DNA of 13,097 bases from Candidatus Bathyarchaeota archaeon (GTDB lineage Archaea > Thermoproteota > Bathyarchaeia > TCS64), in the NCBI GenBank assembly GCA_030601645.1, contig JAUWBQ010000028.1:1-13097 (forward strand). The letters run 5' to 3'. A program made the translations under genes and the position numbers. The notes below the pieces were generated by a model, which was not told where the DNA came from, searched no databases, and saw nothing but the letters and a program-made list of their open reading frames with translations. Below are positions 1 through 13,097 of the stretch, one piece after another. Position 1 is the first letter of the stretch, and every line of letters starts with the position of its first letter.

Positions 1-168
1 GTGAGAGCCTCTGGGGGGGCCTACGGGCGGGGTCGGAGGGATCTAGGCCAAGGTTCATGGGTGGATTTGAGGTTGTTCTATCCTCAATTCAGCGCTGATT
101 CACATCTATTAGGAGAGAACAAAGTAAATCGGAATCCTCTACTGATATTTTAACCGCTCAGAAAGGCT

Positions 169-543
169 CTAGGCGAAGCGGCGCTTAGCTAACCAGTATA
201 CAGCGAACGCAATGGTTAGGTTCACGATCAGGGTCCCGAACACAGGGGTGTAGCTCGTCAGACCGCTTGCCGCTGTCTTAGCTTCTTCAGCGGCTTTAGC
301 GGCGTCCGAGGCCGTTGCCGCAGAGGACGTCGAGTCAGTAAGTCCTGCAACATCATCAGTGAGTGTTTCCCCTGTACCTTCGGTGCTTGGCGGTGCTTCA
401 TCTGGGTCTGGACCTCTAATGCTCTCTCCTTCAGGCTGCACTGCCTCGAACAGAGGTGGGGCTAGCTGCGATGGAATCGTTGAGACGAAGACGTACCCTA
501 AGGTAATCGCCAGCACCGTATAGACGATCAGCTTGGACTCCAA
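169..543 (-). CDS. Small two-helix membrane protein, unknown function
   Basis: I do not recognise the family. The product, about 124 residues, has a hydrophobic segment near the N-terminus (about residues 5-25), a 70-residue linker rich in Asp, Glu, Ser, Thr, Ala and Pro with no hydrophobic stretch, and a second hydrophobic segment near the C-terminus (about 99-119) ending in KRRFA. The positive tail suggests both ends are cytoplasmic and the acidic linker is outside the cell (inference). Two starts are possible: GTG at 552, which lies directly against the AAGGAGGG ribosome site, and TTG at 543, which has that site about 8-10 bases upstream. I chose TTG on spacing. A TATA-like box at 603-611 precedes the gene. 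It appears to be transcribed alone. Confidence 0.6.
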   Translation of the reverse strand: MESKLIVYTVLAITLGYVFVSTIPSQLAPPLFEAVQPEGESIRGPDPDEAPPSTEGTGETLTDDVAGLTDSTSSAATASDAAKAAEEAKTAASGLTSYTPVFGTLIVNLTIAFAVYWLAKRRFA

Positions 544-602
544 CTCACGCACCCCTCCTTCCCATATTTCGCTTCAAGGTCTAAGAAAACTACTGTGGTG
601 GG

Positions 603-611
603 TATATATAG
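603..611 (-). promoter_or_regulatory. TATA box for the small membrane protein gene
   Basis: Read on the minus strand the site is CTATATATA. A transcript starting about 25 bases downstream would begin near 580 and leave a leader of about 30 bases, including the AAGGAGG ribosome site at about 554-560. Confidence 0.6.
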
Positions 612-807
612 TACTACACTTTAGAACAGCCTTTCCGCTTAGATTGGGGTCAAACTCGTTCTCTGACGGGTTTTTCAGTACATCCTTATTGATCAATACT
701 AGTTTTCTTATCGGTTTTACATTGGATTGCGCGGAATCGGTGTGTCTAATTACTAAAAAAGTGGTTTTTATTTCTTAAATATAAATCCTGGGCTTTTCAT
801 GTATCCT

Positions 808-823
808 GTTCTAGGCCTAGAAC
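808..823. repeat. Perfect 16-bp palindrome
   Basis: GTTCTAGGCCTAGAAC is its own reverse complement over all 16 bases. It lies in the AT-rich spacer, 15 bp past the stop codon of the winged-helix membrane gene. No T-run follows on either strand, so it does not look like an intrinsic terminator; a dimeric operator is more likely. A TATA-like stretch (TTAAATATA) on the plus strand lies about 25-35 bp upstream, so the palindrome could cover the start point of an unrecognised rightward transcript. Confidence 0.55.
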
Positions 824-838
824 TCTCTGAGACCTCCC

Positions 839-1279
839 CTAGCGTGGCCTCTCTCTCCATATGCGTACCGTCTCGTACCACAGGATGATGACCGGTACGG
901 CTCCCAGGATGAGGGTGGTGATGTTCTGCCTCGTAGGTTCCATTGGGAACTGCAACACATACGTGACCAGCATCGTGGTCATTAGGACAGCGTAGAAGAG
1001 GAACCTCGGGAGCATGATCCCTCCCAAGGTGACGAACTGCCTGAGCACCCCGACCTTCACCTCCCGGACCAGGATGTAGTCCCCCCGGATGCTCTCCACC
1101 AGCCCGAGGTCCTTGAGCTTGTTCAGGTGGTAGGCGGAGACGCTGGGGCTGCTGAAGTTGAGGGCCCTCTGGACCTCCCGCACTCCAACGGAGTGCTTGT
1201 CCGCCCTGAGGATGTACATGTAGACGAGAAGGGTCTTCCCCTTCAGCTCAGACTCTATGACTTCCTCGTCCGTGGCCAA
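839..1279 (-). CDS. Membrane-anchored winged-helix protein
   Basis: This 146-residue protein has an N-terminal winged helix-turn-helix (about residues 10-72; helix SSPSVSAYHLNKLKDLGLV fits a recognition helix leading into the wing) followed by two hydrophobic helices (about 89-110 and 119-140) and a basic tail. It is probably a DNA-binding domain tethered to the cytoplasmic face of the membrane, perhaps a one-component sensor; the ligand and targets are unknown. The start is a TTG with a strong AGGAGG site 8 bases upstream. A TATA-like box (1311-1320) lies between this gene and the stop of the SPOUT gene, so it can be transcribed on its own. The winged-helix assignment is from pattern only. 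Confidence 0.7.
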   Translation of the reverse strand: MATDEEVIESELKGKTLLVYMYILRADKHSVGVREVQRALNFSSPSVSAYHLNKLKDLGLVESIRGDYILVREVKVGVLRQFVTLGGIMLPRFLFYAVLMTTMLVTYVLQFPMEPTRQNITTLILGAVPVIILWYETVRIWRERPR

Positions 1280-1310
1280 GCCCTGAACCTCCTAACATTA
1301 GGAAATGATT

Positions 1311-1320
1311 CAACATAAAA
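1311..1320 (-). promoter_or_regulatory. TATA-like box before the winged-helix membrane gene
   Basis: The minus strand reads TTTTATGTTG. It is 32-41 bases before the TTG start, which leaves a very short leader that just holds the AGGAGG site at about 1288-1294. Moderate support only. Confidence 0.4.
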
Positions 1321-1323
1321 CAG

Positions 1324-2184
1324 TTAGGAGTGGCCATGGGGTTCGAGGATGTTGAGGAGCGCCAGCGTGGCGTTGATGGCCTCCTCCGTCCGCACAGTCT
1401 CGGGCCCTTGACCCGGTATAGCATTTACGGTGAAGTCGAAGGCCCGATCTAGATCCAGCCCTTTCTCGGATGATAGCTCCCTGAGACCTTTCCTCGGAGA
1501 GCCGAATGCCACTAGGACGTTCCTTGCGTCTCCAATCCTTGAACAGATTTCGGATTCCAACTGCCTGAAAGTTTGAGCATGTCTCGAAGTGGCAATTTTC
1601 AAATCGAAATTCCCGATGGATCCAATTTTTTCGATGCCGCCGCGCACCACGTGGACTTCGTATCCCCAGTAGAGATCGACGTCTTTCCTCCTCACGAATC
1701 TACCCCTCAGGTCGGGGGAGACATCGGAAACAATGACCGTGGCCCTGCTCCCCGGAGACGGCGCCCTCCCCGTCGCCCTCAACGGCCTGTCGACCCCTAT
1801 GTCTACTCGAAACTCCCCGGCCTCCTCAGACAGTACGACGCCCTCCCGGAATTCGCCTATCTTCAACTTGTCCGCCCGCTTCTCGAGGGGGTGGTGGGGG
1901 GTGCGGAGCGGGGGGAGGATCCCTACGTACCTTAGCTCATCCATCTTCTTGAAGAGGCGCTTCCTGAGGTATTGGGGAGTCTCGACATAGCTGAGGAGCA
2001 GCCTGACAAGCCTGGACTCGTCTGGATCGTCCCGATATATGTAGACGTCGTCGACCCGGTATATCGCGGCGGCCCTAGCCACCTGGCCTATGATCCCCGT
2101 CTTCTCCCTGAGGTGGGGCACCTCGGAGACCAGGGACGAAGGTATGGCGATGGAGAGCCTGTAACCCCTGTGCTTTGAAGTCAT
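1324..2184 (-). CDS. SPOUT-family RNA methyltransferase (DUF171, archaeal knotted protein family)
   Basis: This is probably an S-adenosylmethionine-dependent RNA methyltransferase of the SPOUT class, the family of archaeal MTH1-type knotted proteins and human SPOUT1 (proposed rRNA uridine-N3 methylation; the exact target is not shown here). With the start used, the 286-residue protein has an N-terminal Rossmann-like half, an inserted OB-like region (about residues 96-175), and a C-terminal knot half with FGSPRKG (227-233) and the family motif NAIPGQGPETVRTEEA (254-269). I chose ATG at 2184 because it overlaps the TGA of the upstream gene as ATGA, a typical coupled start; an in-frame start at 2217 would lie deep inside that gene. 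In many archaea this gene lies by the uL3 gene; here it does not. Confidence 0.85.
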   Translation of the reverse strand: MTSKHRGYRLSIAIPSSLVSEVPHLREKTGIIGQVARAAAIYRVDDVYIYRDDPDESRLVRLLLSYVETPQYLRKRLFKKMDELRYVGILPPLRTPHHPLEKRADKLKIGEFREGVVLSEEAGEFRVDIGVDRPLRATGRAPSPGSRATVIVSDVSPDLRGRFVRRKDVDLYWGYEVHVVRGGIEKIGSIGNFDLKIATSRHAQTFRQLESEICSRIGDARNVLVAFGSPRKGLRELSSEKGLDLDRAFDFTVNAIPGQGPETVRTEEAINATLALLNILEPHGHS

Positions 2185-2627
2185 ATCGAACCCATACCTT
2201 TTTTCAGTCGGGGCCACGATTTCCAGCCCGTCTTGACGAACCGCTCTCTGTTCTCTAAGTCATCGAGGACCCAGTTCAAAAAGGCGTCGAAGCTCCTCAT
2301 CCCGGCGACAGCCTCCTCGTCACCAACCCCCATCCGTACAAGGCTCCTCTTGAACTCGCGCTCTGCCAGGGCCTGGGTCCGGCCCGTGATTTTTGCGGTG
2401 ACGATCATGTACCCCCTCATCTCCATCTCGTCCCTGATCTTGGACAATATGTACCCGCTACAGACGTGGATGGGCTCTTCCTTTGAGATCTCAAGCCTCT
2501 CTACGCCTTCGAGGGCGATTTCAAGCGCTTTTTCCAAGTACTGCTTCTCATTGAACACGGCGCCTTGGAACAGCTCTAGGGGCACCTCTCCAGAGTAGCG
2601 TTCTCCCGTCCCCACTCGGCGCATCAC
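2181..2627 (-). CDS. Conserved-looking protein of unknown function, possible RNase H-like fold, N-terminus in doubt
   Basis: I do not recognise the family with certainty. The open frame from GTG at 2627 gives 148 residues with alternating strands and helices: a strand near EEPIHVCSGYIL (about residues 50-61), a strand near GYMIVTAKITG (72-82), a basic helix (84-96) and a charged C-terminal helix. The order of elements would suit an RNase H-like fold, which is inference. The frame stays open upstream for a further 27 codons with protein-like content (GGRQSGWGDLLGGAVI), but contains no ATG, GTG or TTG. The nearest ATG with a promoter, at 2706, is in a different frame that hits TAG at 2679-2677. 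The gene may therefore be frameshifted, or start at a rare codon. It overlaps the SPOUT gene by ATGA, so the two are probably one operon. Confidence 0.6.
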   Translation of the reverse strand: MMRRVGTGERYSGEVPLELFQGAVFNEKQYLEKALEIALEGVERLEISKEEPIHVCSGYILSKIRDEMEMRGYMIVTAKITGRTQALAEREFKRSLVRMGVGDEEAVAGMRSFDAFLNWVLDDLENRERFVKTGWKSWPRLKKGMGSI

Positions 2628-2706
2628 GATGACGGCGCCGCCCAGCAGGTCGCCCCAGCCCGATTGACGCCCGCCCCTAGCGAGTATCGTCCAGTTCGAC
2701 GACCAT
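2628..2706 (-). other. Probable displaced 5' end of the unknown gene, interrupted by TAG
   Basis: ATG at 2706 opens nine codons (MVVELDDTR) and then meets TAG at 2679-2677. Skipping one base at CGC-T-AGG joins this to the downstream frame and gives MVVELDDTR followed by RGGRQSGWGDLLGG. A TATA box 34-42 bases upstream places transcription start about 12 bases before this ATG, which favours it as the original start. The joined N-terminus would carry acidic residues on the first strand, as RNase H-like nucleases do. It may be a sequencing error, a pseudogene or programmed +1 frameshifting. Confidence 0.5.
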
Positions 2707-2739
2707 GTATCTCTTCAGAAACAAGAGGCATGAGCCTTC

Positions 2740-2748
2740 TATTAAAAT
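2740..2748 (-). promoter_or_regulatory. TATA box of the unknown gene/SPOUT operon
   Basis: The minus strand reads ATTTTAATA, 34-42 bases before ATG at 2706. A small inverted repeat, GAAGC-CC-GCTTC (2750-2761), sits directly upstream and overlaps the stop codon of the isomerase gene. It could act as an operator, or, with the TTTT behind it on the minus strand, as a weak end signal for the isomerase transcript. Confidence 0.55.
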
Positions 2749-2760
2749 GGAAGCCCGCTT

Positions 2761-3813
2761 CTACTCCCTCTTCAGCTCGTCGATAGCTCCCATAGAACTG
2801 GGATCGTGGCCATAAAGGAAAGCGAGATAGGTCGAGACGTAGTCCCCAATGAGGAGGACGGAGAACATCCTGGCAAGCTTCCCCCGCCCTCTGGATCTCA
2901 CTTCCAGCACGATCCCCACCCGGGACTCGAACAACGCCTTGAACCTGTCGATCTTCCTTGACATTTTTTCCGACTCGAGGGGATCTCTGATGAAAAGCAG
3001 GCAGAGGGACTCCAGCACATCCCGGGGAGCCTCGCTGGCCAAAGCTGCGTTGTGGAAGAGCTCGGGGAAGGACCCTGAGCCGGCCGGGACCTTGCTGTTC
3101 TCGTTGAGCTGGGTCCCAAATCTGTAGGCCACGCTGCCAAACAACTTCGAGCCGTAGACGAGCGGGACCTTGCTGTACAGGTCTAGGGCCAGCTTTTTCG
3201 CAGGGTTTGACGCCGCGGGGATCTCAGGCACCAATTCATCCCTGACCTCGCCGAGGACCTCGATGGCCTCATCGATCTCCTCTGTGCAGGGCGCCAAGCC
3301 AAGCCTCTCCAGAACCGTCACGAGTGTGAAGAACTGATAGGGGAGCGCCGCCCTGGGCTTCAATCCGGCGGGCATCGACGCGATGGGCAAGCCCCTGTCC
3401 CTCGATAGCCGCTCCAGCTTCCCTCCGGAAGTGAACGAGACGATAGGAGATCCAGCCTCCAACGCCTCATGGAACATGCTTAGGGTCTCCTCGGTGTTCC
3501 CGGAGTAGCTCACTGTCAGGACCAGGGTCTCTCCATCGACGAACCCCGGGAGGTGATATCCGCTGGAGACCAGCATGGGGATCCTAGACTCGCCAGAGAG
3601 CCAGTCGGCGATGAGCCTGCCTCCTATGGCGGAGCCCCCCACGCCTGCGAAGACCACGGCATTGAACGTCTTGCCGCCCAGATCCCCCAGGGAAACGGCT
3701 TCGGCGTTTTCAATCGCCAGCTTGCAGTCTTCGGGGAACCTTCCCAGGTTTTCCAGCATACCGCCCTTGTCCAGTTCCACGATCCTTGCGAGCGCGTCCA
3801 GGTTGGAGACCAT
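2761..3813 (-). CDS. Bifunctional phosphoglucose/phosphomannose isomerase
   Basis: It interconverts glucose-6-phosphate or mannose-6-phosphate with fructose-6-phosphate in the cytoplasm, linking glycolysis/gluconeogenesis to mannose-sugar synthesis. The 350-residue protein has two SIS sugar-isomerase domains. Visible motifs are GVGGSAIGG (about 57-65), the phosphate-binding SYSGNTEET (about 103-111), NENSK with the probable catalytic Glu (about 238), PELFHNA with the active-site His (about 254), and a C-terminal Lys in DELKRE, all as in archaeal PGI/PMI enzymes. An in-frame GTG exists at 3831, but the TATA box (3837-3845) is only about 10 bases from it and 28 from ATG 3813; I therefore chose ATG 3813, which would give a leaderless or nearly leaderless mRNA. 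Confidence 0.9.
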   Translation of the reverse strand: MVSNLDALARIVELDKGGMLENLGRFPEDCKLAIENAEAVSLGDLGGKTFNAVVFAGVGGSAIGGRLIADWLSGESRIPMLVSSGYHLPGFVDGETLVLTVSYSGNTEETLSMFHEALEAGSPIVSFTSGGKLERLSRDRGLPIASMPAGLKPRAALPYQFFTLVTVLERLGLAPCTEEIDEAIEVLGEVRDELVPEIPAASNPAKKLALDLYSKVPLVYGSKLFGSVAYRFGTQLNENSKVPAGSGSFPELFHNAALASEAPRDVLESLCLLFIRDPLESEKMSRKIDRFKALFESRVGIVLEVRSRGRGKLARMFSVLLIGDYVSTYLAFLYGHDPSSMGAIDELKRE

Positions 3814-3836
3814 CACCCAATAATGCGACACGAACC

Positions 3837-3845
3837 AGATAAAAG
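3837..3845 (-). promoter_or_regulatory. TATA box of the isomerase gene
   Basis: The minus strand reads CTTTTATCT. Its distance of about 28 bases to ATG 3813 means the transcript should begin at or very near the start codon. Confidence 0.55.
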
Positions 3846-3851
3846 CTCTTC

Positions 3852-3918
3852 AATGGGGCCATTTCCAAAAGCGGGCGAATGACCTGAGATCGGAGTGGCC
3901 AATGACCACGGAGGTCAT
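3852..3918. promoter_or_regulatory. Inverted and direct repeats upstream of the isomerase promoter
   Basis: AATGG-GG-CCATT (3852-3863) lies just upstream of the TATA box. Farther upstream, ATGACC occurs at 3879-3884 and 3902-3907, and its complement GGTCAT at 3913-3918; the last two form an inverted repeat with a 5-base spacer. These could be regulator sites for the isomerase gene. They are short, and no regulator is identified. Confidence 0.3.
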
Positions 3919-3920
3919 CT

Positions 3921-3934
3921 GAAATTAAAAGAAA
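3921..3934 (-). terminator. T-rich stretch after the ferredoxin gene
   Basis: On the minus strand TTTCTTTTAATTTC begins about 29 bases past the ferredoxin stop. Archaeal transcription often ends at T-rich tracts without a strong hairpin, so this is a plausible end point. Confidence 0.35.
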
Positions 3935-3962
3935 TGGGGCTGAGTATTGCAGTGTTATGACG

Positions 3963-4145
3963 CTACTCGTCGACGATTATGGCACCGACGGGGCATGAGG
4001 CCTCGCAGGCGCGGCAGGCGATACACTGGTCCTCCTGGGCGACGACGACCGTGTCCCCCTGGGCCTCGAAGACGCCCATCGGGCAGGTGTTCACGCATGT
4101 CTGGCAAGCATTACAAGTGTCTTGATCGAGGGTCACACTGACCAT
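3963..4145 (-). CDS. 2[4Fe-4S] ferredoxin
   Basis: A 60-residue soluble electron carrier. It has two classic cluster motifs, C11-x2-C14-x2-C17-x3-C21-P and C41-x2-C44-x2-C47-x3-C51-P, in the usual arrangement where the fourth Cys of each motif serves the other cluster. There is no extra domain, signal peptide or zinc-binding N-terminal extension, so it is the short bacterial/clostridial-type form common in anaerobic archaea. The ATG start has a GGTGAT ribosome site about 6 bases upstream and its own TATA box at 4188-4196. It is probably monocistronic; its redox partners are not in the window. Confidence 0.93.
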   Translation of the reverse strand: MVSVTLDQDTCNACQTCVNTCPMGVFEAQGDTVVVAQEDQCIACRACEASCPVGAIIVDE

Positions 4146-4187
4146 GGCTTATCACCTTGTTGGATTCCTCTGATCTTGCTGCTTTCC

Positions 4188-4196
4188 GAATAAAAG
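4188..4196 (-). promoter_or_regulatory. TATA box of the ferredoxin gene
   Basis: The minus strand reads CTTTTATTC. Transcription would begin near 4165, giving a leader of about 20 bases that contains the GGTGAT ribosome site. It lies in the gap after the ribophorin-like gene, so the ferredoxin need not depend on readthrough. Confidence 0.6.
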
Positions 4197-4212
4197 TGTT
4201 GAGGTGGGTGCG

Positions 4213-5892
4213 TCAGCCCCTGGAGCCGAGGGATTCCAGCGCCTGCTCGATCCGCCTTATCGCCTGGCTCCTCCTCCTGAGGCGGTCCTTCCTCCTCCGC
4301 TCGTAGTCCCTGCGGGAGACCCGCCTAGCCCTAAGCCGCACGTCAAGGTTCCTCATGTCCTGGCTGATGCGTTCCAGCTCTCCCTCGGCCCTCTTGATCT
4401 CTCCCAGCCTCTCTGCGATGTCCGGATCCTCCTCCTCCAATGTTCTCTCCAGCTGCCTCAGGGATCGGGTCAACTCGCCAAGGCTACGGTTGATCCCTGC
4501 TGTGCGCTGGTCGAGCTGTTCGCGGCTTATCTCGCCTTCTTCGAGTTCCAGCTCCAAGCCCTCGACCTCCCTGAGGAGGGCGATCCGCTCCATGCTCTGA
4601 GTTATGAAGTCGGAAAGCTTCAGCGCCTCCACCTCGATGGGTTTCACCTCCATCTTAGTCTTCCGTCGCTTCAGGATCAAGGAGACCCCTACGGCTCCGG
4701 CTGCGACCAGGAGCACTGCGATGGGTCGGAGGATCGGCATGATCGAAGCCGAGGGAAGGTCGGCCGCGATCTCGGTTCGCTCCCAGGGTAGGAGGGCCCC
4801 GTACTCGAAGCTCAGGCTCTCGCTCTCGGGCCAGGTGACCACCGCGGAGAGCTCCCTCACATAGAAGGGGAAGTCGCTGTTGGGGTAAGCGAGCGTTGAT
4901 ACGCCTCCCGTCGTGGTGACGTAACCGCCACTGGGCACGGTGTAGGACACTGCGAAGCTCCACCGGTCCCCGTTCATCAGGTACCACCTCGTGGAGACGT
5001 ATGCATCGACGTAATCTTCCCCTTCTTCGCTGGAGACCTGCAACGGGCCGACCCCGTCCCTGGCCTTGATGTCCGATGCCTCAAGGGGGAGCTCCAGGTG
5101 GATGCGGTTCTTTGGGGCTCCGGTGTTGATCAGGGTGTAGCTGTCCTCTATCCTCATGCTCCCCTGCTTCACGGTGATCTTCCTTTCAAGCCTCTCACAG
5201 TCTAGGATGTATTCATCGTCTGGAGCCGGAAAGTACGATATTGTAACGTTCTCGTTAGCGTAGGCTTGGATCGACTCCGACCCGTAGTCCAAGGTCCAGA
5301 TCCCGTCCTGGTTCGAGTCGGTGAAGTTCAGGTCAGAGACGGTCTCCTCGAACTCCGCTTCAAGGGGCATCTCGGCGTGAAACACGAACATAGAGATGTT
5401 ATACGCCAATGCAGGGTAGACGGGCATCCAAGCTGAAAATGTATATTGGCTCTCACCCACCATGTCAACGAACAGGTATGAAGCCCTGAGCCTCAGAGAT
5501 AATTCTCCGGTCATACTCGAAAATACGCCCCCAGTCAGCCTGACAGGCGAGGGGAGAATTATTTCATACCCTTCGAAGCCTTCCCTCGCCTCTTCGTCGA
5601 AGGTCATCGGGGTCCAGTCGGAACCCTGCCAGACCTCGAACGTTTGCCGCTCGCTGGCGAAAAATGGGTGGAACCCCATCCAGAATTCTCGGATTTCGAC
5701 ATCCTCTCCGAGTGACGCCCTCAACGTAAACTCATCGGTCATCCATATGATTCCGGCGTTCTCGATCCGGATCTCTCTATGGACATCGACGATGGGTTCG
5801 GGCGGCTCGACGCCGGTATCAGCCTGGACCGTATGAAAGGGCAACGCTGAAAATATTATTGCGACGATGAATATCACCGTGGAACGTCTCAT
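4213..5892 (-). CDS. Ribophorin I-like secretory membrane protein (possible oligosaccharyltransferase subunit)
   Basis: The 559-residue protein has a clear signal peptide (MRRS, hydrophobic core, about residues 1-24), a beta-rich external part of about 360 residues, one membrane helix (about 386-406, followed by KRRK) and a charged coiled-coil cytoplasmic tail (about 425-555). Length and layout match eukaryotic ribophorin I: two beta-sandwich halves, one membrane helix, then a coiled-coil tail. Local resemblances run in the same order: LERKITVKQGSMRIEDSYTL to the ribophorin segment ending in an EVSHWGNIAVEENY-type strand, SFAVSYTVPSGGYV to YIVGYNLPSYEYL, and VVTWPE to KIILPE. Ribophorin I homologues have been reported in Asgard archaea. 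Possible N-glycosylation sites are N165, N189 and N215. I chose ATG 5892 because the TATA box at 5928-5937 overlaps the longer TTG start at 5928. No STT3 gene is in the window; a role in N-glycosylation is inference. Confidence 0.65.
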   Translation of the reverse strand: MRRSTVIFIVAIIFSALPFHTVQADTGVEPPEPIVDVHREIRIENAGIIWMTDEFTLRASLGEDVEIREFWMGFHPFFASERQTFEVWQGSDWTPMTFDEEAREGFEGYEIILPSPVRLTGGVFSSMTGELSLRLRASYLFVDMVGESQYTFSAWMPVYPALAYNISMFVFHAEMPLEAEFEETVSDLNFTDSNQDGIWTLDYGSESIQAYANENVTISYFPAPDDEYILDCERLERKITVKQGSMRIEDSYTLINTGAPKNRIHLELPLEASDIKARDGVGPLQVSSEEGEDYVDAYVSTRWYLMNGDRWSFAVSYTVPSGGYVTTTGGVSTLAYPNSDFPFYVRELSAVVTWPESESLSFEYGALLPWERTEIAADLPSASIMPILRPIAVLLVAAGAVGVSLILKRRKTKMEVKPIEVEALKLSDFITQSMERIALLREVEGLELELEEGEISREQLDQRTAGINRSLGELTRSLRQLERTLEEEDPDIAERLGEIKRAEGELERISQDMRNLDVRLRARRVSRRDYERRRKDRLRRRSQAIRRIEQALESLGSRG

Positions 5893-5927
5893 GGGGTACA
5901 CCGTACACAGTAAAGAAACACACCCCA

Positions 5928-5937
5928 AATTTAAAAC
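5928..5937 (-). promoter_or_regulatory. TATA box of the ribophorin-like gene
   Basis: The minus strand reads GTTTTAAATT. Transcription would start near 5905, shortly before ATG 5892. It faces away from the gcvPA promoter about 40 bp to the right, so this is a compact divergent promoter region. Confidence 0.5.
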
Positions 5938-5975
5938 GTAGGGCGCAAAGCCATGCCTCCCCCAAAAAAGGTATA

Positions 5976-5985
5976 GTTATAAAAG
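5976..5985 (+). promoter_or_regulatory. TATA box of the gcvPA-gcvPB operon
   Basis: GTTATAAAAG, with transcription expected near 6006. The leader then holds the GGAGG ribosome site at 6013-6017, eight bases before the TTG start. Confidence 0.6.
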
Positions 5986-6025
5986 GGAATGGAAGAGGAT
6001 TGCGTGTTAATCGGAGGACCCCTGA

Positions 6026-7408
6026 TTGAATAAACCCCACCCATATCTGCCTAACAGCGTCCCCGAGATCAAGGAGAAGATGATGGAGGAGATCGGCATA
6101 GACTCCATAGATGAACTCTTCTCCGACATCCCAGACGAGTTGAAGTTCCACGGCGAACTCGACATCCTCGGCCCCTACTCGGAGGCCGAGTTGCGGAAAG
6201 AGGTCTCCGGAACCCTAGAGAAGAACTGGAGCCTCAGGTGCCCCCCCTTCCTGGGCGGGGGCGTCTGGCCCCACTATGTGCCCGCGGTGGTCGACGAGAT
6301 CGTTAGCAGGGCCGAGTTCCTCACAAGCTACACCCCCTACCAGCCCGAGATCACCCAGGGGATGCTCCAATCCATATTTGAGTACCAGAGCCTAATGTGC
6401 GAGCTGCTCGGCATGGAGGTGTCCAACGCCTCCGTGTACGATTGGGCCACGGGCCTCGGCGAGGCCGCCCGAATGGCCAGTAGACTAACGAGGAAGACTT
6501 CCATTCTAGTCCCCAGCCTTATGAGCACCAGCCGACTCGCAGTACTGAGATCGTACGCCGAACCGGCTGACATCACGACCGTTCAGGTGGACTACGACAA
6601 GACCACAGGGCAGATGGACATCGAAGACCTGAAAGAGAAGATGGACGACAAGACCGCCGCGGTCTACATCGAGAACCCCTCGTATCTCGGGTTCATCGAG
6701 GAGGGAGTAGAGGCCATAGGCGAGGTGGCGCACGACTCCAAGGCGCTGTTCATCGTCGGCGTCGACCCCATCTCCCTCGGCCTCCTCAAGCCCCCGGGAG
6801 ATTACGACGCAGACATCGTGATCGGGGAGGGACAGCCCCTCGGCAACCACATGAACTTCGGTGGCCCCCTGCTGGGCATATTCGCCTGCAAGGACCAGCC
6901 CAAGATGATCAGGCAGATGCCAGGCAGGCTGATAGGCATGACCGAGACCCTCGAGGGCTCCAAGAGGGCCTTCGCGATGACCCTCCAGACGAGGGAGCAG
7001 CACATAAGGAGGGAGAAGGCCACGTCCAACATATGCTCGAACCAGGCCCTCTGCGCTTTGGCCAGCGCAGTGTACCTATCCTTGCTGGGTCCCAAGGGCA
7101 TGAGAGAGCTGAGCGAGGTGGTGGCGAGCCGAGCGAGGTACGCCATGAGGAAGATAGGCGAGCTCCCCGGGGTCAGGGCTCCGGTGTTCAACAGCTCCCA
7201 CTTCAAGGAGTTCACGGTCAAGTTCAGGACGAAATCCGTCTCGGAGACCCATCTCAGCCTTCTCGACAGGGGGATCCACGGCGGGAAGTCCCTGGTGAAC
7301 GAGTTCCCCGAGCTCGAGGAGACTGCCCTCTACAGCGTCACCGAGATGCACACTAAGAAGGACATAGACAGGCTGGTCTCGGTCCTCGGGGAGGCGCTGG
7401 AGGGATGA
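6026..7408 (+). CDS. gcvPA: Glycine dehydrogenase (decarboxylating) subunit 1
   Basis: This is the alpha subunit of the split P-protein of the glycine cleavage system. With GcvPB it removes CO2 from glycine and passes the aminomethyl group to the lipoyl arm of H-protein; the reverse reaction can make glycine. The 460-residue length and the N-terminal HPYLPNSVPEI and IDELFSDIP segments, TSYTPYQPEITQG and the ANMYDGAT-like NASVYDWATGLGEA match the family, as does the late IRREKATSNICSNQAL segment. Like other GcvPA proteins it is fold-type I but lacks the cofactor lysine. The start is TTG with GGAGG eight bases upstream. Its TGA overlaps the next gene as ATGA, so translation is probably coupled. 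GcvT and GcvH are not in the window. Confidence 0.95.
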   Translation: MNKPHPYLPNSVPEIKEKMMEEIGIDSIDELFSDIPDELKFHGELDILGPYSEAELRKEVSGTLEKNWSLRCPPFLGGGVWPHYVPAVVDEIVSRAEFLTSYTPYQPEITQGMLQSIFEYQSLMCELLGMEVSNASVYDWATGLGEAARMASRLTRKTSILVPSLMSTSRLAVLRSYAEPADITTVQVDYDKTTGQMDIEDLKEKMDDKTAAVYIENPSYLGFIEEGVEAIGEVAHDSKALFIVGVDPISLGLLKPPGDYDADIVIGEGQPLGNHMNFGGPLLGIFACKDQPKMIRQMPGRLIGMTETLEGSKRAFAMTLQTREQHIRREKATSNICSNQALCALASAVYLSLLGPKGMRELSEVVASRARYAMRKIGELPGVRAPVFNSSHFKEFTVKFRTKSVSETHLSLLDRGIHGGKSLVNEFPELEETALYSVTEMHTKKDIDRLVSVLGEALEG

Positions 7409-8940
7409 CTATGAGACGATTCAGGCAGGCAGACTGGGAGGAACCCCTCATCTTCGAGCTGGGCATGGAGGACAGGGTCGGCTTCACCGTCCCACACCTC
7501 GAACCGGAGCTGATCGACGCCATCGATGATATCGCCGAGCTCGTCCCCGAAGGGATGGTCAGGACCAAGCCGGCCAGGTTGCCGGAGGTCTCGGAGATCG
7601 AGGTCCTCCGCCATTACATCCACCTCTCCCAGATCAACTACGGCGTAAACTCGGGGGTCATCTATCCCTTGGGAAGCTGCACCATGAAGTACAACCCCGT
7701 CATCAACGAGGTCCTCGCGAGCCACCCCAAGATCACTGAGACACACCCGGAACAGGACGAAGCCTCTGTCCAAGGCACGCTCGAGTTCTTGCACAAGCTG
7801 ACGGAGGGTTTCCTGGAGATTACGGGCATGGACGACGCCAGCCTCCAACCGGCCGCCGGCGCCCACGGCGAGTACCTCGGCATCCTCATCATCTTGGCCT
7901 ACCACGCCGACAGGGGAGAGCTGGACACCCGCAGGGAGATCATCATCCCCGACTCTGCCCACGGCACGAACCCAGCGAGCGCCATGATGGCGAGATTCAA
8001 GACCGTGGAGGTCCCGTCCAACGAGGACGGCGGCGTCGACATCGAGGCCTTGAAGAGCGTGGTCGGGCCCCAGACTGCGGGGCTGATGCTGACGAACCCC
8101 AACACGCTTGGGATCTTCGACGAGAACATCGCTGAGATCGCTGAGATAGTCCACGAAGTGGGGGGGCTGATGTACTACGACGGGGCAAACCTCAACGCCA
8201 TAATGGGCAAGTGCAGGCCCGGCGACATGGGCTTCGACATCGTCCACGTCAACCTCCACAAGACCTTCGCCACCCCCCACGGGGGCGGGGGCCCGGGTTC
8301 GGGGCCCGTGGGCGTCAAAGCCTTCCTGGCCGACTACCTCCCGGTTCCCACCGTCGAGGAGGCCGACGGAGTCTACAGCCTCAGCTGGGAGAAGCCCAAG
8401 ACGGTCGGCAAGATCCACGGGTACCACGGCAACGTGAACGTGATGCTGAAGGCGTACGCCTACATGCTGTCCCTCGGGGGGGAGGGGCTCAAGGAGGCCT
8501 CCGAGCTGGCCGTTCTGAACTCGAACTACATCGCCCAGAAGCTGAAGGACGTGAGGGGATACTCCCTCCCATTCGGGGAGGGGAAGTGGCGGATGCACGA
8601 GGCTGTGCTGAGCGCATCCGAGATGGAAGAGGAGACTGGGGTCAGGGCCCTCAACGTCTCAAAGAAGCTGCTGGACTACGGCCTCCACGCGCCCACCACG
8701 TACTTCCCCCTCATCGTCCCCGAGGCCCTCATGATAGAGCCGACGGAGACGGAGCCCCTTGAGGCCCTCGACGAGTTCATAGAGGCCATGAAGGAGATAT
8801 CCAAGCTGGCATACTCGAATCCCGAGGAGGTTCTCGAGGCCCCGAAGAACACGACGGTAGGGATGCTCGATGAGGTCAGGGCCTCCCACCCTAAGACCCT
8901 CTGCCTGAGCTGGGGGACCTACTGCAAACTCCCTCTTTGA
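7405..8940 (+). CDS. gcvPB: Glycine dehydrogenase (decarboxylating) subunit 2
   Basis: This is the beta subunit of the split P-protein, which carries pyridoxal phosphate. The cofactor lysine is K286 in HVNLHKTFATPHGGGGPG, the family signature; other hallmarks are YPLGSCTMKYNP (about 87-98), LQPAAGAHGEY (about 147-157) and DSAHGTNPASA (about 183-193). The 511-residue length is normal for the family. The ATG start lies inside the ATGA overlap with gcvPA, so the two subunits are made in step. The long open frames on the opposite strand here follow from GC-rich codon use and are not genes. After its stop there are only 53 bases before the next gene, which has its own TATA box. Confidence 0.96.
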   Translation: MTMRRFRQADWEEPLIFELGMEDRVGFTVPHLEPELIDAIDDIAELVPEGMVRTKPARLPEVSEIEVLRHYIHLSQINYGVNSGVIYPLGSCTMKYNPVINEVLASHPKITETHPEQDEASVQGTLEFLHKLTEGFLEITGMDDASLQPAAGAHGEYLGILIILAYHADRGELDTRREIIIPDSAHGTNPASAMMARFKTVEVPSNEDGGVDIEALKSVVGPQTAGLMLTNPNTLGIFDENIAEIAEIVHEVGGLMYYDGANLNAIMGKCRPGDMGFDIVHVNLHKTFATPHGGGGPGSGPVGVKAFLADYLPVPTVEEADGVYSLSWEKPKTVGKIHGYHGNVNVMLKAYAYMLSLGGEGLKEASELAVLNSNYIAQKLKDVRGYSLPFGEGKWRMHEAVLSASEMEEETGVRALNVSKKLLDYGLHAPTTYFPLIVPEALMIEPTETEPLEALDEFIEAMKEISKLAYSNPEEVLEAPKNTTVGMLDEVRASHPKTLCLSWGTYCKLPL

Positions 8941-8951
8941 GGGGGGCAGCA

Positions 8952-8960
8952 TTTTTATTC
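8952..8960 (+). promoter_or_regulatory. TATA-like box of the insertase-cmk-rpl14e operon
   Basis: TTTTTATTC, about 34-42 bases before ATG 8994. Transcription would start near 8981, leaving a leader of about 13 bases that begins at a purine-rich GGAAGGGA stretch, which may serve as the ribosome site. Confidence 0.5.
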
Positions 8961-8993
8961 ACATAATACGAAGGAGGGCTGGAAGGGACCCCG

Positions 8994-9512
8994 ATGATGA
9001 ACCTACTATCGACTCTCGCCTCGGCAGACCTGAGCAGCCTGCAGCAGCCCCCAATGGCTACCATACTCATCCTCTTGTTGACCATCGCACTAAACCTAGT
9101 GATCGGCTTCTTGGGCAGGAGGAGCATGGACCTCGATGAGTATAGGAGGATCATGACGGAGTCTCGCATCGCTCAGCAGGAAGTGATGGCGGCGATGAAG
9201 AGCGGCAACCAGAGAAGGATCTCCAAGGCTCAGAAGAGGCAGCAGGAACTCTCCCAGGAACAGATGAAGATCTCGGGGAATAGGATGAAGACGTCTTTCT
9301 TCTACATTATCCCTCTGATGATCCTCTGGCCGGTCCTCCGGACATTCTTCGGCGATGCCATCATCGCCTACATGCCTTTCAAGTCCCCCATCTCGGGCCT
9401 CGAACTGAAGATGGGCAGCTGGTACTTCCTCTGCACATTCACGTCAAGCATCATCATACAGCGAGTCCTTGGCCTCACCTTTGAAATCGATCCCGAGGAT
9501 AGCGCCAAGTAG
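8994..9512 (+). CDS. DUF106/EMC3-type membrane insertase (Oxa1 superfamily)
   Basis: This 172-residue integral membrane protein has one helix near the N-terminus (about 22-41), a basic, Gln-rich coiled-coil cytoplasmic segment (about 46-98), and two further helices (about 101-119 and 142-161). That is the layout of archaeal DUF106 proteins, which belong to the Oxa1/YidC/EMC3/TMCO1 superfamily and are thought to help insert membrane proteins beside the ribosome and Sec channel. Its place before cytidylate kinase and eL14 is the conserved archaeal neighbourhood for this family. ATGATG gives two possible starts three bases apart; I used the first. The next gene begins 9 bases after its stop. Confidence 0.85.
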   Translation: MMNLLSTLASADLSSLQQPPMATILILLLTIALNLVIGFLGRRSMDLDEYRRIMTESRIAQQEVMAAMKSGNQRRISKAQKRQQELSQEQMKISGNRMKTSFFYIIPLMILWPVLRTFFGDAIIAYMPFKSPISGLELKMGSWYFLCTFTSSIIIQRVLGLTFEIDPEDSAK

Positions 9513-9521
9513 GTCTCAGAG

Positions 9522-10088
9522 ATGAACGACCAGGCGGATCAGGCCTCCGAGAGGGGGCTCGTGATAACCGTGAGTGGCGTCCACGGTTCTGGGCGCTCCA
9601 CCCACGCAAAGAAGCTGGCGGAGACCTTCGCCCTCAGGTACGTGTCCTCGGGGACCATATTCAGGCAGATGGCGGATGAGCGGGGTATAAACCTAGAGGA
9701 AATGTCAAAGCTTACGGAAGAGAACCCTGAACTTGACAGGATGATCGACGAGAGGGCCACGGAGGAATCCAAGAAGGGCGGGGTCGTGATCGACGCGACT
9801 CTCTCCGGCTGGATGGCCCACGACCCGGATATCAGGATCTTCCTTAAAACCCCCTTCGAGGCCCGGATAAGGAGGATTGCCAAGAGGGAGGGAATCCCCT
9901 ACGAGGAGGCTGAGAAGGAGACCACGGTCAGGGAGGAGAGCGAGAGGGAGAGGTTCCAGGAATACTACAGTTTAGACATCGCAGACCTCTCCATATACGA
10001 CGTGATCCTGAACACCGAACTCTATGAGCCGGAGGGGACGGCGCGAATCCTTAAAAGCGTGGTCGAGGAATACTGCTCGATCAGGTGA
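9522..10088 (+). CDS. cmk: Archaeal-type cytidylate kinase
   Basis: It phosphorylates CMP (and dCMP) to the diphosphate using ATP, in pyrimidine nucleotide supply. The 188-residue protein has a P-loop GVHGSGRST (about 19-27), the segment RYVSSGTIFRQMADERG (about 39-55), typical of archaeal CMP kinases, an acidic DxxIDE-like helix (ELDRMIDERA) and the lid region REESERERFQEYY with GIPYEEAE before it. Position 25 of the P-loop is Arg where most P-loop kinases have Lys; archaeal CMP kinases often vary here, so activity is still likely. The N-terminus has an extra ten hydrophilic residues before the first strand. Its stop overlaps the ribosome site of eL14, so the two genes are tightly linked. 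Confidence 0.92.
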   Translation: MNDQADQASERGLVITVSGVHGSGRSTHAKKLAETFALRYVSSGTIFRQMADERGINLEEMSKLTEENPELDRMIDERATEESKKGGVVIDATLSGWMAHDPDIRIFLKTPFEARIRRIAKREGIPYEEAEKETTVREESERERFQEYYSLDIADLSIYDVILNTELYEPEGTARILKSVVEEYCSIR

Positions 10089-10092
10089 TCGG

Positions 10093-10326
10093 ATGTCGGC
10101 CATGGATGTAGGGCGGATCTGCCTCAAACTGAAGGGGAGAGAGGCGGCGAAGCGCTGCGTCGTAGTTGACGTTATCGACAGGAACTACGTGATTGTGACC
10201 GGCCCCTTCGAGCTGACTGGGGTCAAGCGGAGGAGGGTCAACATGAGTCACCTGAAGCCCTTGGATGAGGTGATCGAAATCCCTAGGAACGCCTCGGACC
10301 AAGAGATAATTGACATCCTGGGTTAA
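10093..10326 (+). CDS. rpl14e: Large ribosomal subunit protein eL14
   Basis: This 77-residue ribosomal protein of the archaeal/eukaryotic eL14 family is a KOW-like small barrel that binds 23S rRNA. Family features are DVGRICLKLKGREAAKRCV near the start, VTGPFELTGVKRRRVNMSHL in the middle and a short NASDQEI tail. I chose ATG 10093 because the AGGTGATCGG ribosome site, which includes the cmk stop, lies directly before it; the longer frame from 10024 would run inside cmk and match nothing. ATG 10102 is possible but has no better ribosome site. In many archaea cbf5 follows this gene; here it does not. Confidence 0.93.
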   Translation: MSAMDVGRICLKLKGREAAKRCVVVDVIDRNYVIVTGPFELTGVKRRRVNMSHLKPLDEVIEIPRNASDQEIIDILG

Positions 10327-10360
10327 GGCCCTTCAATCCTTGCAGAGTTTATTGCCTGGG

Positions 10361-10560
10361 ATTGGATTTTCCGTTTTGTGGAGGGGCCTGGCCGCGTCGG
10401 CCGTCGTCCTTCGTTGCCGTTGGGGCGGCCCGTTTCCCCAGACCACTCGTGTGGGGTTCGGGCGGCCTTACCGTTCCTTTGGAGCCCGGCGCCCACGGGT
10501 TCGGCCCCTGATCCACCGTCTATGTCGTTCATGCGCCCTGTTGCTATGATGGAATCCATT
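10361..10560 (+). ncRNA. Candidate structured RNA of unknown class (GC-rich intergenic island)
   Basis: Between the convergent eL14 and TrmB genes lies a stretch about 72 percent GC over 10381-10500, while other intergenic regions are AT-rich. It is closed by a long-range stem: TGGATT-tt-CCGTT (10363-10375) pairs with GATGGAATCCA (10548-10558). Inner hairpins include GGCCG-cgt-CGGCC (10390-10402), TGGGG/CCCCA (10421-10440), CCAC-tcgt-GTGG (10443-10454) and CGGGC/GCCCG (10459-10488). G-U pairs extend the closing stem on the plus strand only. I found no RNase P, SRP, 5S, tRNA or box C/D signature. It may be a 3' UTR element of the eL14 transcript or a separate RNA; it has not been folded by computer. 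Confidence 0.35.
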
Positions 10561-11489
10561 TAGAGGGGCTGAGTCTTTAAGGGGGATTTTCGCTTCACGT
10601 CCGTCATGAGGAGGGACATGAGGGAGAGGATTGTTGAGTCGTCAGAGAATACTGCGAATTCTATGGACGGGGTCATCGTCTCCCGCTCGTCCAGTTTCGC
10701 GAGGACGAAGCGTCTGTGGTCCGAGTCTATGAAGAGGAGGGGGGTGGAGACCGCGACTTTCCTCACCTCGAACAGGTATGAGAGCTCCCTCGCCAGGGGG
10801 TTCGTCTTGGGGTTCAAGGGGGAGCAGATTCTGATCTCGACCCCTTCCTCCTTTACCTGGTCGAGGAGCTTGGGGGCGGAGTTGAATAGGAGTGAGAGCC
10901 CGTCTGCGCTCGTGAGGATGTCCAGAGTCTCCTCGGACTGGCTAATCATCTCGTGGCATTTTCCTATAATGTCGTCGTCTTTGTCGATGTACCAGATTAT
11001 CTTCTTCTTGGGAGATGCATCGCTCTTGATGAGTTCGTGGGTCCGTGTGAGGGTTTCGAGGACTGCGGAGAAGTCGTGGGCCTTGTTCTTCACCCTCTTT
11101 AGGGTCGCGCTGAACGCGTCTGTGGGGGAGGCGGGGGCGAAATACTTGGGGACTCCGGGTATTTCGACAACTATTCCGTATTCTATTAGTTTTTTTAGGG
11201 TTCCGTAAACTTTCGTCCTGGGAACGTTGCAAGTAATGCTGAGCTTTCTCGCTCCAGAGCACCCAAGGCCCAATAGGCTAAGATATACCTTGGATTCGTA
11301 CTCCGAAAGGCCAGCGTATTCAACCATTTTTGGCCAGATGAGAAGCAGGTCTACGATGTCGTTGTCTTCGCTCTTGTTTAGGGATCTTCGTTCTCTTGAA
11401 GTTTTAGTTAAATGAGTCAAAATTGTTCGTTCCCGTTGGTTTTTATTATGTTTATTATTTCTTGATACTGTCACTATCAGCACCCTCAT
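10560..11489 (-). CDS. TrmB-family transcription regulator
   Basis: This 309-residue protein has a TrmB-type winged helix-turn-helix (about residues 57-118; SEYESKVYLSLLGLG and VPRTKVYGTLKKL are hallmark segments), a helical linker (about 121-155) and a C-terminal ligand-type domain (about 162-300) like that of archaeal TrmB proteins, which often sense sugars or other small metabolites. The ligand here is unknown. The 53 residues before the domain are Asn/Lys/Arg-rich and lower in GC than the rest, so the true start may be ATG 11327 (residue 55) or TTG 11420. An AT-rich stretch on the minus strand (CATAATAAAAACC, about 11441-11453) would suit as promoter for the shorter forms; GTATACTT at about 11535-11542 would suit the long form. 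Confidence 0.8.
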   Translation of the reverse strand: MRVLIVTVSRNNKHNKNQRERTILTHLTKTSRERRSLNKSEDNDIVDLLLIWPKMVEYAGLSEYESKVYLSLLGLGCSGARKLSITCNVPRTKVYGTLKKLIEYGIVVEIPGVPKYFAPASPTDAFSATLKRVKNKAHDFSAVLETLTRTHELIKSDASPKKKIIWYIDKDDDIIGKCHEMISQSEETLDILTSADGLSLLFNSAPKLLDQVKEEGVEIRICSPLNPKTNPLARELSYLFEVRKVAVSTPLLFIDSDHRRFVLAKLDERETMTPSIEFAVFSDDSTILSLMSLLMTDVKRKSPLKTQPL

Positions 11490-11666
11490 CGTAGTTACAT
11501 CGTGAAGTTAGCGTTGGGGCTTCGATCAGTCCCAAGTATACCCCCGGGAACATATGGAAGACACATAGATTTCGAATTTTTTTTACAAACAATCGTTTTT
11601 TTTAACATCAAAAAATTGGTTATTACGTTTTTATGTAACTAAAAACTGCGAAAATAAGAGCCTATG

Positions 11667-11687
11667 TGCATCTGTTTTATGCATCTG
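11667..11687. repeat. Direct repeat TGCATCTG, candidate operator
   Basis: TGCATCTG occurs at 11667-11674 and again at 11680-11687, 13 bp apart start to start. It ends 12 bp upstream of the TATA box of the ArsR-like gene, a position where archaeal activators or repressors often bind. Confidence 0.4.
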
Positions 11688-11699
11688 AAAGTATCACTC

Positions 11700-11707
11700 T
11701 TTAAATA
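11700..11707 (+). promoter_or_regulatory. TATA box of the ArsR-like gene
   Basis: TTTAAATA, with transcription expected near 11730 and a leader of about 30 bases to ATG 11764. No clear ribosome site lies before the ATG. Confidence 0.5.
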
Positions 11708-11763
11708 TTCGTTTTCTCGTTACCATAATGTTTGATATTTTAATTCCGAGTCGGTATTGAAAC

Positions 11764-12075
11764 ATGGAAAACATAAGGATGCAGCTCAAAGTCCTCTCGA
11801 AAAGGCATTCCCTCGAATTAATAAGGCTCCTTTTCGAGGATCAGAAATACGTCTCCCAAATTTCGAAGGAAACAGGCATCCCATACACCACCGTTCAACA
11901 GAGAGTGTCAGAGCTAGAGAGAGCCGGAATTGTGGAAGTGGAGGCAGGAGTCGACGAAGCTTCGAAGAGGGCGATCAAGCTGGTCAGATTGGTGAATTTT
12001 AGGATCGAACTCACCCCTAGAGTAATCCAAAAGCTCGTTACCGGTGAAGACCATAGAGAGCTTAGAATAGGGTAA
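11764..12075 (+). CDS. Small ArsR-like winged-helix transcription regulator
   Basis: This 103-residue protein is almost entirely a winged helix-turn-helix of the ArsR/MarR-like type: helix pair LSKRHSLELIRLLFEDQ (about 11-27), turn with YVSQISKETGIPYTTVQQRV (about 29-48; recognition helix PYTTVQQRVSELE) and a wing through AGIVEVEAG. The tail has no metal-binding Cys/His motif, so it is not a classic metal sensor, and no ligand can be proposed. It probably binds as a dimer; the TGCATCTG direct repeat just upstream of its own promoter is a possible target (inference). Its stop is 2 bp from the end of the converging cysteine synthase gene, so each transcript probably runs into the other. Confidence 0.78.
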   Translation: MENIRMQLKVLSKRHSLELIRLLFEDQKYVSQISKETGIPYTTVQQRVSELERAGIVEVEAGVDEASKRAIKLVRLVNFRIELTPRVIQKLVTGEDHRELRIG

Positions 12076-12077
12076 AA

Positions 12078-13049
12078 TCAAGTGGTATACTTTTTCTCCG
12101 TTAAATAGCGATCCCTGCTATCCGGCAGAACCGTCACGACCCGGCGGCCCTCTCCCAATTCCTCCGCTACTCTGAGAGCCTGAAAGACATTAGCCCCGGA
12201 AGAGACGCCGCAGAAGAGGCCCTCCTCTCTGACGAGCCTGTCCGACATCTCGATGGCGTCGTGGTTGGTGACCTTGACTACCTCGTCCACTATACCGCTC
12301 TTCATCATCTCCTCGATGATCCCGCCTGTCACCTCACCGCCAAAGCCCGGAATCCTGTAGTATCCGCCGCTAATGGGATAGTTAGCCGAGGCGGGCTCGA
12401 CCCCGACGATCCTCACACCGGGCAACTTTTCCCGGAGAGCCTTCGCGACACCGTAAAGGGTTCCCCCAACGCCGATGGAAGCCACGAAGGCATCCACCCT
12501 GCCTTTCATCTGCTGGAGTATCTCCTTTCCGGTTTTAACGTGGGCCTTGGTGTTAGCGGGATTGCTGAACTGGCGGGCCCACCAAGTATTGGGTCGAGTT
12601 CGTTCCAGCTCTAGGCATTTGAGCCGTGTGTCGATCTCCACCTCGGCTCCCGCTACGCTCTTGTCCTCGGATGTAGATTCGAGCTTGAGCTGGTGGACCT
12701 CGGCGCCGTAGCTCTCAATGAGCCTGATCCGCTCGGGGGTCATCCCCTCCGGCATGTAGATGGCGACCTGGTAGCCGAGGTAGTTGCCGATGAAGCTGAC
12801 CGAGGTCCCCGTGTTTCCCGTGCTCGCCTCTATGATGGTGTAACCTGGCTTCAGCTTCCCTTCCGCCTCCGCCTCCCGGATCATCTCCAGGACTATCCGG
12901 TCTTTCAGGCTACCGCTGGGGTTCATGTACTCGCATTTCACGTAGACATCCGCCAAGCCCTTTTCCGGGACTTTCCTCAGCCTGACCATCGGCGTGTTCC
13001 CGATGAGATCTAGGACGCTGTCAACAACCTTCAAACTCAATCCCAGCAC
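12078..13049 (-). CDS. PLP-dependent cysteine synthase family protein
   Basis: It probably makes L-cysteine from an activated serine (O-acetyl- or O-phosphoserine) and sulfide. The 323-residue protein is fold-type II: LIGNTPMVRL (about 15-24), the cofactor lysine K49 in NPSGSLKDR, the substrate loop EASTGNTG (about 74-81), the phosphate cup GVGGT (about 193-197) and GVSSGA (about 281-286), whose Ser contacts the cofactor ring nitrogen. QFSNPANTKAH and LPDSRDRYLTEKKY also fit. The region after GVEPA is shorter than in bacterial CysK (no PGPH before the glycine-rich turn), so the donor substrate is uncertain, and cystathionine beta-synthase-type activity is not excluded. The start is GTG 13049, though TTG codons at residues 4 and 6 are possible. 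Confidence 0.9.
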   Translation of the reverse strand: MLGLSLKVVDSVLDLIGNTPMVRLRKVPEKGLADVYVKCEYMNPSGSLKDRIVLEMIREAEAEGKLKPGYTIIEASTGNTGTSVSFIGNYLGYQVAIYMPEGMTPERIRLIESYGAEVHQLKLESTSEDKSVAGAEVEIDTRLKCLELERTRPNTWWARQFSNPANTKAHVKTGKEILQQMKGRVDAFVASIGVGGTLYGVAKALREKLPGVRIVGVEPASANYPISGGYYRIPGFGGEVTGGIIEEMMKSGIVDEVVKVTNHDAIEMSDRLVREEGLFCGVSSGANVFQALRVAEELGEGRRVVTVLPDSRDRYLTEKKYTT

Positions 13050-13097
13050 TATTAGACAACGTTGGCGGGATAACAGTTTCCTTTGATCCTCACAAGG

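Follow-up and report, generated by a model that had tools for sequence, protein, structure and literature searches.

Ribophorin I (RPN1 in human, OST1 in yeast), a non-catalytic subunit of the oligosaccharyltransferase, belongs to a family best known from eukaryotes, and mammalian RPN1 touches the ribosome via its tail in the native complex. In the portions of the literature available to us, a 2016 study named no promising archaeal candidates (PMC4973528), a 2023 study referred to earlier reports of prokaryotic OST1 in Asgard archaea (PMC10307638), and one sentence of a 2024 study placed OST1 and OST3/6 in eukaryotes, TACK and Asgard archaea (PMC11417166). The accessible text of the 2024 study also described the OST1 tail of the Asgard archaeon MK-D1 (crystal structure 8WHN) as a four-helix bundle that binds human ribosomes, which the MK-D1 ectodomain does not, and reported ribosome binding by the human tail in a pull-down. 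Unlike that Asgard protein, the gene described here is of the Candidatus Bathyarchaeota lineage. It lies in the window, the whole 13,097-nucleotide stretch of DNA that was analysed (contig JAUWBQ010000028.1 of assembly GCA_030601645.1, positions 1 to 13,097). Within the literature on ribophorin or oligosaccharyltransferase and Bathyarchaeota, as far as its text was available and supplements aside, we found no report of OST1 in this lineage. We put the probability that its product is an archaeal ribophorin I (OST1), serving as a non-catalytic oligosaccharyltransferase subunit, at about 0.87. The gene and the parts of its product are as follows.

4213..5892, minus strand: OST1 / ribophorin I homologue, 559 residues plus stop, ATG start at 5892
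5821..5892, minus strand: signal peptide, residues ~1-24 (MRR..., hydrophobic core), hydropathy 2.03 over residues 4-22
5227..5805, minus strand: ectodomain 1, residues 30-222, all beta in the predicted model, homologous to ectodomain 2
4747..5226, minus strand: ectodomain 2, residues 223-382, almost entirely beta in the predicted model
4672..4740, minus strand: single membrane helix, residues 385-407 in the predicted model, hydropathy 2.16 over residues 390-408
4216..4671, minus strand: cytoplasmic tail, residues 408-559 (152 residues), predicted four-helix bundle
4216..4329, minus strand: Arg-rich last helix (residues 522-559) with 14 R, 1 K, 2 D and 3 E, for a net charge of +10

The best Pfam match of the window protein in hmmscan was Ribophorin_I (PF04597; 24.7 bits, E 1.6e-5), the family for which an earlier note on this DNA had proposed an HHpred check. 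NCBIfam gave weak, below-cut-off matches only, located in the tail. A protein database search returned 22 homologues with 40-95% identity, 16 of which carry a precomputed PF04597 label. Two alignments were used: A1 consists of the window protein and 18 relatives (19 rows), and A2 (23 rows) takes in 12 PF04597-picked proteins of the same class and two more close relatives. All but one of the 19 A1 proteins match PF04597 at E 0.01, and a PDB search with the A1 profile picked out human RPN1 (5e-7), the match spanning ectodomain 2, the membrane helix and the tail. The 12 PF04597-picked rows all match A1 at 4e-22 or better (within a small set of open reading frames, ORFs). With A2, the matches reached 1.6e-27 for human RPN1, 6.5e-17 for yeast Ost1 and 6.7e-17 for the Asgard tail 8WHN; these values are not fully independent, as they lean on the PF04597-picked rows, and the A1 value for human RPN1 is independent. 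The solved yeast chain (476 residues) is matched only as far as the membrane helix. The A2 match is weak in ectodomain 1: the stretches containing this domain have i-Evalues of 0.022 (human) and 3.1e-4 (yeast). A second protein search using A2 added only two close-family fragments. The three local segments that the earlier note had tentatively aligned with ribophorin I also pair in the wider-profile alignment: SYTVPSGGYV with YNLPSYEYL and VVTWPE with KIILPEG of human RPN1, and ERKITV..RIEDSYTL with RPN1 residues ~230-250, a stretch that is weak alone (i-Evalue 0.022).

The domain order agrees with that of ribophorin I. The ORF, hydropathy and the predicted model place the signal peptide, beta-rich external half, single membrane helix and tail where the earlier note had them. 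Two hydropathy peaks stand out across the 559 residues, at 4-22 and 390-408, corresponding to the N-terminal signal peptide and the one membrane helix of ribophorin I. The signal peptide is probably cleaved after VQA, judging from the residues there, and an alternative TTG start at 5928 would give 12 extra N-terminal residues. In the model, strands occupy residues 34-379 (~350 residues, mainly beta) and a helix spans 385-407, continued by KRRKTK on the presumed cytoplasmic side. For the tail, helices are predicted at 426-451, 457-488, 490-521 and 527-556; the arrangement is predicted to be a four-helix bundle like 8WHN, as in human and Asgard OST1, and not the simple coiled coil of the earlier note. 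The last helix of the archaeal copy is more Arg-rich than that of eukaryotic OST1 (alignment inspected by eye). The supposed duplication of the external half was confirmed: the ectodomain is two tandem homologous beta halves, which align over 166 columns with an hhalign score of 78.9 (E 2.8e-12, rows of A2). In 20 column-shuffled controls the score never exceeded 21.7, and it was 13.3 with the reversed half and 6.7-6.8 with the tail.

To profile the spread of the gene, we focused on the class of the genome G002 (151 genomes) and on its phylum (398 genomes); gene absences in these counts are soft, as genome completeness is not given. A scan of genome contigs with the single protein gave no match, and the same scan with A1 gave three loci (L001-L003, L002 being in G002). 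PF04597 alone matched in 50 class genomes and in none of 14 control genomes. The A2 profile detected OST1 in 114 class genomes at E 1e-6 and in 164 phylum genomes, partly the same as those of the class set (of these two kinds of OST1 count, the PF04597 one had control genomes). These counts support a wider (TACK) occurrence, and the full-length window gene suggests that the helper subunit is older than eukaryotes and not limited to Asgard archaea. An Asgard origin of the window gene was considered and rejected: its named kin (homologue P0019 and loci L001-L003) are all Candidatus Bathyarchaeota, and the gene order around OST1 in the window recurs in G002, G003 and others.

The archaeal copies are of several forms. 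Five fetched copies of 406-433 residues (L039-L043) keep ectodomain 2, the membrane helix and the tail and have no ectodomain 1. They fall at three places in the OST1 tree by eye, two of them on long branches, which suggests that ectodomain 1 was lost repeatedly; the tree tool counted one change, against three other labelled rows only. Three copies of 514-520 residues (L044, L045 and L056) have an N-terminal part that is outside profile recognition and looks unlike ectodomain 1. From the A2 matches in the phylum, 11 loci were fetched to cover different match patterns, and four of these copies (L065-L068) end 27-34 residues past the membrane helix, with basic, often proline-rich ends and no four-helix bundle. 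All intact forms seen share a core of ectodomain 2 plus the membrane helix.

The two beta ectodomains would lie outside the cell membrane beside STT3 and help to hold the protein substrate, and the single helix would pack against STT3. The cytoplasmic four-helix bundle, Arg-rich last helix included, may bind the ribosome; such binding was assayed for the MK-D1 and human tails, according to the available text of PMC11417166, and for the window tail we infer it. Ribosome binding would hold the enzyme close to the SecY channel, where proteins could be N-glycosylated while emerging.

The OST1 chains are the best structural matches of the predicted model, in the comparison with RPN1/Ost1 that the earlier note had proposed. 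Ectodomain 2 aligns to OST1 and, by fold, to the N-terminal domains of M1 aminopeptidases (LTA4H, ERAP1), the latter being a one-domain match limited to residues 222-381. Structural likeness also exists to chain T of the glycosylphosphatidylinositol (GPI) transamidase (8IMX, 7WLD; Foldseek E 1.6e-8), which we take to be PIG-T. The protein might be a member of another beta-sandwich membrane protein family, PIG-T or a secreted protein with an M1-aminopeptidase-like domain, and resemble OST1 by fold only. We consider this very improbable, because the Foldseek E-value for OST1 is about ten orders of magnitude better than for these rivals, and OST1 leads the M1 aminopeptidases by 13 Z units; the chain T match is far weaker (TM-score 0.17-0.20), and neither PIG-T nor M1 aminopeptidases are in the profile-match lists up to E 10 (A1) or E 1 (A2), which do include OST1. 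No family matched better than ribophorin I, whereas a better match elsewhere is what the earlier note had said would refute its reading; the GPI transamidase chain and M1 domains were set aside as much weaker fold matches. Coiled-coil families (SMC, DndD, DUF3040 and others), also rejected, match the tail alone and with weak scores. The eukaryotic renown of the family could speak for recent acquisition of the gene from a eukaryote, but this is extremely improbable given the wide spread across the class and phylum and the high diversity of the archaeal copies, the 12 rows added in A2 being 16-29% identical to the window protein.

Several results weigh against an OST1 that works in glycosylation. 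The window copy alone falls 0.3 bits short of the Pfam curated cut-off (24.7 vs 25), A1 alone is not significant for yeast Ost1 (E 1.1) or 8WHN (0.027), and identity to human RPN1 is 17% (15-19% to the eukaryotic chains, human 6S7O chain E and yeast 6EZN chain A). The Foldseek TM-scores to OST1 are 0.37-0.49, and the full-length root-mean-square deviation is 28.9 Å, the latter being large because the placement of the tail relative to the ectodomain is uncertain in the model (predicted TM-score 0.58). STT3/AglB occurs in 136 of the 151 class genomes, including 32 of the 37 without detected OST1; therefore, OST1 is either not needed everywhere or was missed. No evidence of an OST1-STT3 operon was found: of the 104 class genomes with both genes, 14 that have the two on the same contig were compared by eye, and the spacing is 55 kb or more in each. 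That OST1 genes do not adjoin STT3, and that 10 of the 114 OST1 genomes have no STT3 match (G130, of ~1.5 Mb, among them), would suit a true OST1 by descent with a role outside glycosylation, such as that of a general membrane receptor for the ribosome or SecY; so would ribosome binding by the tail of the Asgard relative, as described in the accessible text of PMC11417166. We regard such a role as unlikely, given that OST1 and STT3 occur together in the other 104 OST1 genomes, full-length copies retain the substrate-facing ectodomains, and the four bundle-less phylum copies still have ectodomain and membrane helix. We thus favour an oligosaccharyltransferase subunit that would associate with STT3.

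A second potential partner was sought, like STT3, in these related genomes, with PF04756 (OST3/OST6). The whole family matched in 136 of the 151 class genomes at E 0.001 (50 over the cut-off) and in 5 of the 14 controls (1 over the cut-off), with many matches to the thioredoxin part, and this count was set aside because of the control and thioredoxin-part matches. Among the matches listed, the membrane part was found in 56 genomes, from which a partial match in G095, ~25 kb from STT3, was excluded. The gene is on the STT3 contig in 36 of these, always opposite in strand to STT3 and no more than 10 kb away; 15 have it on another contig than STT3, and 5 have no STT3 match. Four fetched proteins (L059-L062, 131-140 residues), which match the membrane half only, have OST3_OST6 as their best Pfam family, three of them above the cut-off. 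The results point to these small proteins, often encoded near STT3, as candidate OST3/6-like partners without a thioredoxin domain. G130 (contig C1, 1,497,384 bases) has OST1 and an OST3/6-like match with internal stops, and no STT3 match.

We lean slightly towards a multi-subunit, ribosome-tethered oligosaccharyltransferase of STT3, OST1 and an OST3/6-like membrane protein having been present already in the common ancestor of TACK and Asgard archaea. If true, N-glycosylation was coupled to translation before eukaryotes arose, and this link did not originate in Asgard archaea. Many sequences are now at hand to ask when OST1 and ribosome-tied glycosylation arose.

The neighbourhoods of OST1 were compared at 41 loci with mechanically called ORFs. 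The neighbours recur by lineage, and the scanned ones are housekeeping genes or of unknown function. At nine loci (L034, L037, L038, L040-L042 and L053-L055), OST1 is immediately preceded on its strand by a small gene of one cluster, whose one scanned member is DUF2095. In the window, an EMC3/TMCO1-like membrane insertase gene (8994-9512, plus strand; E 3.9e-17) lies ~3 kb from OST1, and a cytidylate kinase gene comes after it. Six of the 41 loci, the window included, have members of the EMC3/TMCO1-like cluster near OST1.
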